Positions 43,443 through 46,971 of a DNA stretch of 64,000 nucleotides are shown piece after piece (position 1 is the first letter of the stretch; each line of letters begins with the position of its first letter). This DNA is from Aggregatilineales bacterium (lineage in GTDB: Bacteria; Chloroflexota; Anaerolineae; Aggregatilineales; Ch27), in contig JARKNX010000036.1 in assembly GCA_029976025.1 (NCBI GenBank), positions 1-64,000 of the forward strand, given 5' to 3'. Under the pieces are notes generated by a model, which saw nothing but the letters and a program-made list of their open reading frames with translations, had not been told where the DNA came from and made no database searches. The position numbers and the translations under genes were made by a program.

Positions 43443-44165
43443 TCACAGAATCTCGCCATCGCGCACCGGCCGCCAGAAGGTCCAGTAGAGGGATGCCCCC
43501 AGCAGGCCCAGCGCCATGATGATCCACAGGACGGCCCACAGCGCCGCCGGAAGCAGGGGGATTTCCGCGGCCATGGCGTAGGCGTCGTTGGGGACATTGC
43601 CCAGTGTCGTGATGACGCTCGCGTTCAGGCTGTGCAGCAGGCCCCACAGGTCGAGCACGGCGTTGAGGGCGGTCAGGAAAGCCAGGATGTTGAGGCTGAG
43701 CGTGGTCAGCCAGAGCGGGGCCTTCCGCCCCAGCAGGATCAGCGCGCCGCCGGTCACCAGCCCGGCCAGGATAGCCGGTATGTTGCGGGCGAAGAGCACC
43801 GTCAGGATCAGGAAGGCGATCCCCAGGCCGGTGGCGATGGCCCGCGCGAAGCGCGTCCGGTTGGTGAAGTAAAGCAGGGCCGCGCCGAACAGCGCCGTGC
43901 TGAGGTAGCCCGCCGGGATGACCAGCCAGCGCCAGCCGCCCGCCGAGGTGGCGACCCCGGCCCCGCTGGTGTAAACTTCATAGTGGATGAACTGCCCGCC
44001 TGTGAACAGCGCGGCCAGGCCGTGCCCCAGTTCGTGGATGGTGGTGACGAAGTAGCGGAACGGGGCGAGCAGGATGTTGAGATCGGGCATCTGCCATACG
44101 ATCAGGACGATGGCGAAGGCCAGTGCGGCCAGCAGCAGGGAACGGCGACGGTCATCACGGGTCAT
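43443..44165 (-). CDS. M50B-like membrane metalloprotease
   Basis: TTIHELGHGLAALFTGG (HExxH) and multiple TM helices. Confidence 0.83.
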   Translation of the reverse strand: MTRDDRRRSLLLAALAFAIVLIVWQMPDLNILLAPFRYFVTTIHELGHGLAALFTGGQFIHYEVYTSGAGVATSAGGWRWLVIPAGYLSTALFGAALLYFTNRTRFARAIATGLGIAFLILTVLFARNIPAILAGLVTGGALILLGRKAPLWLTTLSLNILAFLTALNAVLDLWGLLHSLNASVITTLGNVPNDAYAMAAEIPLLPAALWAVLWIIMALGLLGASLYWTFWRPVRDGEIL

Positions 44166-44314
44166 CGGGGGACTCCTGGGCGTTTGATGCGCTATCTGTT
44201 TATACGCGCGGACGGGGGCAGGCGTTGCGGACGCCCGCTCACCCTCAAGTATGCCTGAGTGTATGACAATGTTGATTCTTGCGCCGGGAGGTTCGGGCGA
44301 AAGGGTCTTGCGAG

Positions 44315-44826: not shown

Positions 44827-44855
44827 TTGACAGGTTATAGAGAACCCGTTAGACT
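44827..44855 (+). promoter_or_regulatory. sigma70-type promoter for small ORF
   Basis: TTGACA (44827-44832), 17-nt spacer, TAGACT (44850-44855). Confidence 0.75.
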
Positions 44856-44889
44856 GCTGAATAATACTGAAGAAAGGAGCAGGCGCATT

Positions 44890-44979
44890 ATGCACAGCAA
44901 TAGTGCTACCACCCGTGTTCGTGTCGTTCTGGGCGATGTTGAAGTTGCCCCGGGGACGATTGCGCCTGCCAGCCATTAG
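44890..44979 (+). CDS. small ORF, 29 aa, uncharacterised (MHSNSATTRVRVVLGDVEVAPGTIAPASH)
   Basis: AAGGAG SD 10 nt upstream of ATG; promoter upstream and strong terminator downstream; not in the supplied ORF track. Confidence 0.6.
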   Translation: MHSNSATTRVRVVLGDVEVAPGTIAPASH

Positions 44980-45005
44980 TGTGCCGCTAAGAATCAGGTA
45001 ACACG

Positions 45006-45034
45006 AGGCCGTGGGCGCACCCCACGGCCTTTTT
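45006..45034 (+). terminator. rho-independent terminator
   Basis: AGGCCGTGGG-cgcac-CCCACGGCCT perfect 10-bp stem followed by TTTT. Confidence 0.92.
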
Positions 45035-45085
45035 CTTGCCGCGCTCGCTTATGCGGCGAGATCCACCGATCAGGTGACAGGCATT

Positions 45086-45120
45086 CAGGCCGTGGGGATC
45101 ACTCCCGCGGCCTGTTTTGT
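45086..45120 (+). terminator. second terminator-like hairpin
   Basis: CAGGCCGTGGG...CCCGCGGCCTG followed by TTTTGTTT. Confidence 0.75.
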
Positions 45121-45156: not shown

Positions 45157-46074
45157 ATGAAAGCTGCGATAGATCGAAATCAGGACGCGCTGAATGTGCG
45201 GAATGTCACCAAGCGCTTCAAAGTGAGCAAGCCGCCTTTCTGGACGCGCTGGCGCGCGCAAAAGGGCGCCACGGGCAACGGCTCGACGGCCAGTGGGGGC
45301 CGGGGTGGCGACGCCGGGATGCAGGGCGTCGTCGCCATCGGCGGTGTATCGCTGGATGTACACCGCGGCGAGATTTACGGCATTCTGGGGCCGAACGGCT
45401 CCGGCAAAAGCACGCTGGTGCGTATGCTGTCCACGCTGCTCATCCCGGACGAGGGACAGGTGCTGGTCTTCGGGCTGGACGTAGTCCGGCATGAAATGGA
45501 AGTCAAGCGCGTGATCAACCGCGTGTCGGTGGACGCGGCGTTCTTCAAGAAGCTCAGCCCGCTGGAGAATCTGCTTTACGGCGCGCGCCTCTACGGCATG
45601 ACCGGCGGCGAGGCGCGCCGGAAGTCGATCGACATCCTGGGGCGCCTGGGGCTTGAAGCCCGGTCCTACACCCAGCCGATGGATGAGATGAGCCGGGGGA
45701 TGCAGCAGAAGGTCGCCATCGCTCGCGCTTTCCTGACACAGCCGATCCTGCTCCTGCTGGACGAGCCGACCACCGGCCTCGATCCGCGCTCCAAGTACGA
45801 GGTGCAGGAGTTTGTCAACGAGCTGCGCGACTGCCACGACGCCACGATTCTGATCACGACCCATGACATGGGCGAGGCCGACCGGCTGTGCGACCGGATC
45901 GCCATCCTGGATGAGGGCCGGATTGTGGCCGAGGATACGCCCGCCGGGTTGAAGCGCCTGATCCGCCGTAACGGGCACGAGCCGACGCTGGAAGATGTCT
46001 TCATGCAACTGACCGGCAAGAAGCTGAGCGGCGCGGAGGAGTTCGACCCCGAGCCGGTCGAGGTCGCCAATTAA
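45157..46074 (+). CDS. ABC transporter ATP-binding protein (DrrA-like)
   Basis: GPNGSGKSTLVRML, MSRGMQQKVAIARAFL, LLLDEPTTGLDP. Confidence 0.94.
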   Translation: MKAAIDRNQDALNVRNVTKRFKVSKPPFWTRWRAQKGATGNGSTASGGRGGDAGMQGVVAIGGVSLDVHRGEIYGILGPNGSGKSTLVRMLSTLLIPDEGQVLVFGLDVVRHEMEVKRVINRVSVDAAFFKKLSPLENLLYGARLYGMTGGEARRKSIDILGRLGLEARSYTQPMDEMSRGMQQKVAIARAFLTQPILLLLDEPTTGLDPRSKYEVQEFVNELRDCHDATILITTHDMGEADRLCDRIAILDEGRIVAEDTPAGLKRLIRRNGHEPTLEDVFMQLTGKKLSGAEEFDPEPVEVAN

Positions 46075-46134
46075 TCTTGAATCATGGGCGGGGGAGGGAT
46101 ACGGGTTCTCTCCCCCGGGTAGGGGAACTTCAAT

Positions 46135-46971
46135 ATGTTCGCAAGGCTGAATCTCAGGACAGAAGTGCTGCAAAGCTACGCCTTTGTCGCCCGCAACTTC
46201 AACCTGATCAAACGGTACTGGGGCTGGGAGCTGGTGTGGCTGGCTTATTCCACGGCGACCTCGCTGGCCGTCGTGTTCATCGGCGAAGGCTCCGCCCTGA
46301 TCACGGGCGCCGAGGACATCGATACATCGTACTTCGTGCTCTATCTGCTGCTCGGGACGCTGGTCTGGGGCTTTTTGTCCGGGCTGTTCAACGACATCAG
46401 CGAGATGATCCAGTGGGAACGGTGGGAGGGCACGATCGAGTACACCCTGATGGCGCCGGTGCACCGCTTCACCCAGATCATCGGGCAGGCCGGCTTTGCC
46501 GTGCTGCACAGCCTGCTGTTCACCATGACTATCGGTGTAGCGATGATCATCTTTTTCTCGCTGGACCTGAGCGACGCCAATCTGTTCGGGGCGCTGCTGG
46601 TCCTGCTGGCGGGGAGCCTTTCGCTGGTGTCGCTGGGGGTGATGGCCAGCATCCTGCCGCTGCTGTACACGGAGCGCGGCACGCAAATGACACATATCGT
46701 ACAGGCATTCCTGCTGCTGATCTCCGGCGTGTACTATCCGATTGAGGTGCTGCCGTCGGTGCTGCAAACGCTGGCCCGGGTATCGCCGGTGTACTACGTG
46801 CTGAACGGCATCCGCTCCGCTGTGCTGGAGGGCACGCCCACTTCCGAGCTATGGGGCTACATCGTGCCGCTGCTGATCATCGGCGTGGTCGGCATGCCCC
46901 TCGGCGTCTGGGTCTTCCGCCAGGCGGAGCTGTATGCCAAGCGCCATGGCAAGCTCAAGCGCGTCGGGTAG
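46135..46971 (+). CDS. ABC-2 type transporter permease
   Basis: Six TM segments, VSPVYYVLNGIRSAVLEG motif; downstream of ATPase. Confidence 0.9.
   Translation: MFARLNLRTEVLQSYAFVARNFNLIKRYWGWELVWLAYSTATSLAVVFIGEGSALITGAEDIDTSYFVLYLLLGTLVWGFLSGLFNDISEMIQWERWEGTIEYTLMAPVHRFTQIIGQAGFAVLHSLLFTMTIGVAMIIFFSLDLSDANLFGALLVLLAGSLSLVSLGVMASILPLLYTERGTQMTHIVQAFLLLISGVYYPIEVLPSVLQTLARVSPVYYVLNGIRSAVLEGTPTSELWGYIVPLLIIGVVGMPLGVWVFRQAELYAKRHGKLKRVG

Follow-up and report, generated by a model that had tools for sequence, protein, structure and literature searches.

A conserved leader of a DrrA-like ABC exporter operon in Anaerolineae: a probable ribosome-mediated transcription attenuator sensing inhibited translation

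The window analyzed here, a stretch of 64,000 nucleotides from the Aggregatilineales bacterium contig JARKNX010000036.1, carries on its forward strand a short leader and, directly behind it, the two genes of an ABC exporter, arranged as follows:

44827-44855, forward strand: sigma70-type promoter TTGACA-17-TAGACT (TTGACA 44827-44832, TAGACT 44850-44855), recognized by direct reading and pattern scan; conserved in the family
44874-44887, forward strand: segment A, the SD AAGGAG (44874-44879) plus CAGGCGCA; complementary to segment B
44890-44979, forward strand: leader ORF (uORF) of 29 codons, MHSNSATTRVRVVLGDVEVAPGTIAPASH, with ATG at 44890 and TAG at 44977-44979
44914-44922, forward strand: Arg-Val-Arg (R9-V10-R11) within the leader ORF
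44957-44970, forward strand: segment B (CGATTGCGCCTGCC), the end of the ORF; partner of A (anti-antiterminator) or of C (antiterminator)
45005-45036, forward strand: terminator T1, with segment C as 5' arm and loop (GGGCGCA, 45013-45019) and segment D as 3' arm (45020-45030)
45086-45119, forward strand: second terminator T2, a hairpin (45086-45114) plus T-run, with segment E as 5' arm (45087-45097)
45157-46074, forward strand: predicted controlled gene 1, ABC-2 type (DrrA-like) transporter ATPase
46135-46971, forward strand: predicted controlled gene 2, ABC-2 type permease

Throughout, C and D denote the 5' and 3' sides of T1, and E and F the two sides of T2. Transcription is expected to start near 44862. 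The T1 hairpin is perfect over 10 bp (45006-45015/45021-45030), with a 5-nt loop, and is followed by T5; segment E is a perfect 11-bp complement of segment D. The ATPase matches ABC_tran, and its closest NCBIfam model is drrA, below the cut-off of that model. Upstream of the leader lies a gene for a Peptidase M50B-like membrane protease (43446-44168, reverse strand), for which no link to the attenuator was seen.

An earlier note, made from the sequence alone, had listed the promoter, the SD, the 29-codon ORF and the 10-bp terminator, and direct reading found each of them in its place; it had overlooked T2 as well as the fact that the SD region, the end of the ORF and the arms of the terminators can pair with one another. 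A pattern scan of 3 kb returned two promoter-like sites, the window promoter being the best, where shuffled sequences gave 0.6, and four terminator-like sites, where shuffled sequences gave 2.0. By these counts, each signal alone is only modestly above chance and constitutes weak evidence, and it is conservation that is decisive.

Conservation in relatives, proposed in the earlier note as a check, was found. A DNA search of 41 relatives recovered positions 44919-45034 at 71-81% identity from the four other genomes of the family and, as a weak match, from one additional genome of the order, and the same layout was seen upstream of ATPase relatives in further Anaerolineae and related Chloroflexi (named metagenome-assembled genomes). 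A covariance model built from eight copies of the element (R1) detected it in 117 of 397 genomes of the class, some of which have two copies. In a phylum-wide draw, R1 matched 25 of 399 genomes, nearly all of the same class, with few matches outside it, and a covariance model search of 20 genomes of other phyla returned no match. A second covariance model (R2), built from four divergent copies, had no match in 399 genomes, a set without any genome known to match R2. Of 106 non-redundant copies, 93 have a sigma70-like promoter with a score of at least 9/12 immediately before them, compared with 2 of 81 background stretches; T1 was found in all parsed copies but one, and a T2 candidate in 102 of 118.

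The leader ORF is conserved in its boundaries. Among 95 parsed non-redundant copies, a start codon (ATG in 87, GTG in 8) stands at normal SD spacing, and the ORFs are mostly 17-35 codons long; for roughly one copy in ten, automatic parsing yielded no ORF preceded by a recognizable SD. The stop codon falls exactly 10 nt after the core of segment B in 52 of the 95, and also in the window by direct reading, the automatic call having misplaced B there. Segment B is read in the frame encoding P-C/S-R-S/I-A-P in 72 copies and in another frame in 23. No codon-level selection on the ORF body was detected in 19 close pairs, where substitutions at codon positions 1, 2 and 3 stand at 92:101:102; the codon-level check suggested for an uncharacterised small protein thus revealed no purifying selection and spoke against such a protein. 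What is conserved is the position of start and stop, the RNA pairings and the site directly upstream of resistance-type genes.

Although the ORF bodies vary freely, they are enriched for Arg-X-Arg, which occurs in 30 of 93 bodies (8.2 expected in shuffles; 0 of 2000 shuffles reach the observed count), often some 20 residues ahead of the C-terminus. According to one study, Arg/Lys-X-Arg/Lys is the predominant ketolide stall site, and the specificity of macrolides is broader (PMC8298421); RLR is a hallmark of macrolide-sensing leader peptides such as rli80 (PMC6310831) and Mef(E)L (PMC4335068). The earlier note had correctly seen that the ORF lacks a run of Trp, His or Leu codons such as would suggest amino-acid attenuation, but had passed over R9-V10-R11, which fits the Arg-X-Arg stall motif of such macrolide-sensing peptides, so that macrolides may be the drugs to which the window copy responds. 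Since only a third of the members have the motif, the inducer probably differs between copies. The elements that precede GNAT genes in genomes of family f34 (L058, L067, L084, L090, L100, L114, L155) have leader ORFs without Arg-X-Arg, which suggests a different inducing drug class for that lineage.

A constitutive arrest peptide of the SecM or RAPP kind was considered and rejected. Such peptides carry a RAGP or RAPP arrest motif near the C-terminus and an export signal at the N-terminus; the common C-terminal R-S/I-A-P differs from it, and the leader peptides, mostly 17-35 residues long, have no obvious N-terminal signal sequence by eye.

The RNA of the element consists of the overlapping helices A:B, B:C, T1, D:E and T2. 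In the window, A:B comprises 9 bp (44879-44887 with 44961-44969), B:C 7 bp only (44961-44967 with 45013-45019) and D:E 11 bp without mismatch (45020-45030 with 45087-45097). The pairings were evaluated with an alignment-free test, in which the duplex of each segment with its own partner is compared with its duplexes with the partners of other copies, on 107 non-redundant copies, 83 of which have a usable T2. Own partners were strongly favored for A:B (z -9.8), B:C (z -9.2), T1 (z -20.8) and D:E (z -12.3); none of 2000 permutations did as well. The control pairings A:C (z -0.3) and B:E (z +1.0) gave no own-partner signal in this test, which argues against shared ancestry as the cause of the covariation. 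In an alignment fitted to the structure, the A:B and T1 columns show double-sided changes in 16 of 17 pairs (0 of 500 shuffles reach the score) and 89% of their cells are paired, as opposed to 33-50% for slid structures. B:C was judged by the own-versus-foreign test because the T1 loop falls in insert columns of the model alignment; a tally of CGNAG/CTNCG gave the expected C-to-G and T-to-A/G pairing in 18 copies and none for N = G. Since segment B takes part in both A:B and B:C, these two helices, the anti-antiterminator and the antiterminator, exclude each other, and covariation is seen for each of them. Regulatory RNA, which the earlier note had named as one of several options, is thus the one that these pairings and the fixed start and stop positions uphold.

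The genes behind the element were surveyed in 98 copies by taking the longest same-strand ORF starting within 1 kb, which is not strictly the first gene. ABC_tran was found in 48 of these proteins (DrrA-like ATPases, MsbA-type exporters and dual-domain proteins), Acetyltransf_1 (GNAT) in 33, ABC2_membrane in six, MFS_1 in three and ABC_tran_Xtn, the linker domain typical of ABC-F proteins, in seven. Exporters, ABC-F-like proteins, GNATs and MFS pumps are the set expected of a resistance regulon, and the gene families, as judged by their domains, would fit resistance to translation inhibitors. In the window, the element is the leader of the DrrA-like exporter operon at 45157-46971; it most likely acts as sensor and switch of that operon and is not a separate, self-contained small gene, as had been supposed. 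T1, which the earlier note took to set the ORF apart from the ATPase gene, would instead be the means of controlling that gene.

Taken together, these features make ribosome-mediated transcription attenuation a very probable explanation: the element would respond to inhibited translation and thereby govern the ABC exporter operon behind it. The leader ORF would most likely be a short decoy reading frame, and the stalling of ribosomes on it would switch on genes for drug export and other resistance-type genes. The order of switching that we infer is the following. During normal translation, or with no ribosome loaded, B would be held by A or hidden under the ribosome that completes the ORF; with C left free, T1 would form, T2 would follow behind it, and transcription would stop. 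If a ribosome came to a halt in the first part or the middle of the ORF, as it might at R9-V10-R11 with a macrolide bound, that ribosome and those queued behind it would keep A off B. Given the usual size of a ribosome footprint, stalling with V10 in the P site would shield about 44902-44935 and leave B free. B could then capture the 5' arm and loop of T1 (B:C), so that T1 would fail; the freed 3' arm (D) could capture the 5' arm of T2 (E), so that T2 would fail as well, and RNA polymerase would continue past T1 and T2 and transcribe the exporter genes.

When the nascent RNA of 91 copies was folded as far as the T1 loop in a partition-function calculation, the outcome agreed in direction with this model across the family. 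Blocking A in silico increased pairing between C and the ORF (B:C) by at least 3 bp in 38 of the 91 copies and decreased it in none, and when the stop region was blocked instead, B:C was weaker by at least 3 bp in 79 of the 91. In the window copy, C is predicted to pair with the ORF even without a ribosome (12.3 versus 12.4 expected pairs), so that thermodynamic folding alone does not show switching there.

The same architecture would serve if the signal were amino-acid shortage rather than a drug, as in trp or ilv leaders, which are built of the same parts: leader ORF, anti-antiterminator, antiterminator and terminator. However, no run of any one codon type is present in the freely varying ORF bodies, and the genes downstream are exporters, ABC-F-like proteins, GNATs and MFS pumps, with no biosynthetic operon; we therefore regard this signal as improbable. 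A riboswitch binding a metabolite or a drug, with no role for the ribosome, would likewise use alternative helices and terminators, its usual expression platform. Yet the element matches no Rfam family at gathering score and nothing convincing at relaxed thresholds, it has no conserved unpaired core fit for an aptamer, and the positions of SD, start and stop are conserved, all of which makes such a riboswitch highly improbable.

The remaining explanations detach the leader from the operon. The good promoter, SD and terminator, and an ORF in most copies, could suggest a stand-alone gene for a small protein or RiPP-like precursor with its own terminator, and the earlier note had considered both products. 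Such a gene has very little probability given the even substitution ratio of 92:101:102 in the 19 close pairs, the differing frame over segment B in 23 of 95 copies and the lack of any peptide-modifying gene among the direct neighbors. It is also hardly probable at all that the product is a trans-acting small RNA ending at T1, with the ABC operon transcribed from another promoter: termination at T1 would indeed give a separate transcript of about 170 nt, started at the promoter of the leader itself, but the element stands before a small set of gene classes, and the SD/start/stop geometry together with the C:D:E pairings makes sense only in cis.

A ribosome-mediated attenuator would be a mechanism of a known kind, represented by ermK, mefE, hflXr and vmlR, and the element has the structural features of that kind: an SD-bearing short ORF close to the expected transcript start and an intrinsic terminator between the ORF and the resistance-type gene are both present. 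The drug-dependent stall within the ORF that defines this kind may occur here too, the Arg-X-Arg enrichment being the one observation in its favor. The ermK leader of Bacillus licheniformis likewise attenuates transcription in a drug-inducible way and also has a leader peptide and a pair of neighboring intrinsic terminators (PMC5418344; PMC4335068), but it belongs to the Firmicutes and controls an rRNA methylase, whereas the Chloroflexota element has another ORF and precedes exporters, GNATs and ABC-F-like targets. The mef(E)/mel leader of Streptococcus resembles the element in its peptide Mef(E)L (MTASMRLR, with Arg-X-Arg), its anti-attenuator helix and its terminator before efflux and ABC-F genes, and differs in having eight codons, one terminator and, in the description consulted, no SD-anchored A:B of this sort (PMC4335068). 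In the Listeria rli80-hflXr leader, a 14-residue ORF with RLR lies inside the anti-antiterminator and stalling leads to antitermination (PMC6310831), although with a single terminator and in a different gene and phylum. The vmlR leader of Bacillus subtilis shares the anti-antiterminator, antiterminator and terminator, and a stall at uORF initiation induces its ABC-F gene (PMC9226507), but its uORF has three codons and an SD-sequestering hairpin is found at vmlR. In the toiL uORF of Escherichia coli topAI, stalls at several positions allow several drug classes to induce (PMC12121999); there, however, stalled ribosomes expose the SD of the downstream gene, and no intrinsic-terminator relay is involved.

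The drug-responsive leader attenuators that a search of open-access papers brought up belong to Firmicutes, Actinobacteria and a few Proteobacteria, and the search found none in Chloroflexota. New in the present element are the sequence family, the phylum, the unusually varied targets and, probably, the relay between two terminators. D:E is stronger than C:F (46 copies versus 26, p 6e-4), favoring selection for D:E pairing over mere terminator duplication. Nevertheless, because the arms of T1 and T2 resemble each other, part of the D:E signal could stem from such duplication, and as C:F also co-varies (z -10.5), the T1-to-T2 relay is probable, not proven. We advance more tentatively the broader proposal that one stall defeats two serial terminators through a six-segment chain (A:B, B:C, C:D, D:E, E:F), and that this relay is reused across Anaerolineae as a shared sensor before exporters, ABC-F-like proteins, GNATs and MFS pumps.

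Present in about 30% of the searched Anaerolineae, the family provides, in a phylum that is mostly uncultured, a sequence handle on ABC, GNAT and MFS genes that are likely to be induced by ribosome-targeting antibiotics. If the relay is indeed reused across the class, the leader alone would flag uncharacterised resistance genes, and, if the relay holds, placing two terminators on one sensor would be a way to tighter attenuation.

Several variations within the family were also observed. Many leader ORFs, such as those of L062, L099, L118 and L138, contain in their middle part a short GCC-NNN-GGC hairpin with Gly-Gly codons, Gly-Gly occurring in 23 of 93 ORF bodies compared with 8.5 in shuffles; this hairpin could be an RNA polymerase pause signal. 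In L010, L011, L012, L013, L103 and L145, the ORF stop is a TAG inside segment B (CGTAGTGCGCC), and in L012 and L013 B:C extends by eye to 13-14 bp. Shortened copies, in which about 93-130 nt are matched (L112 and L121 in genomes G004 and G001, L094, L128, L137 and L151), mostly lack a clear SD and still precede ABC-F-like or MFS genes; they may form a subtype of their own, in which the leader ORF is very short or missing. Finally, a further GC-rich hairpin is often seen by eye between T1 and T2, at 45037-45061 in the window and in the spacers of L009, L012 and L004, where it would close the D:E loop.
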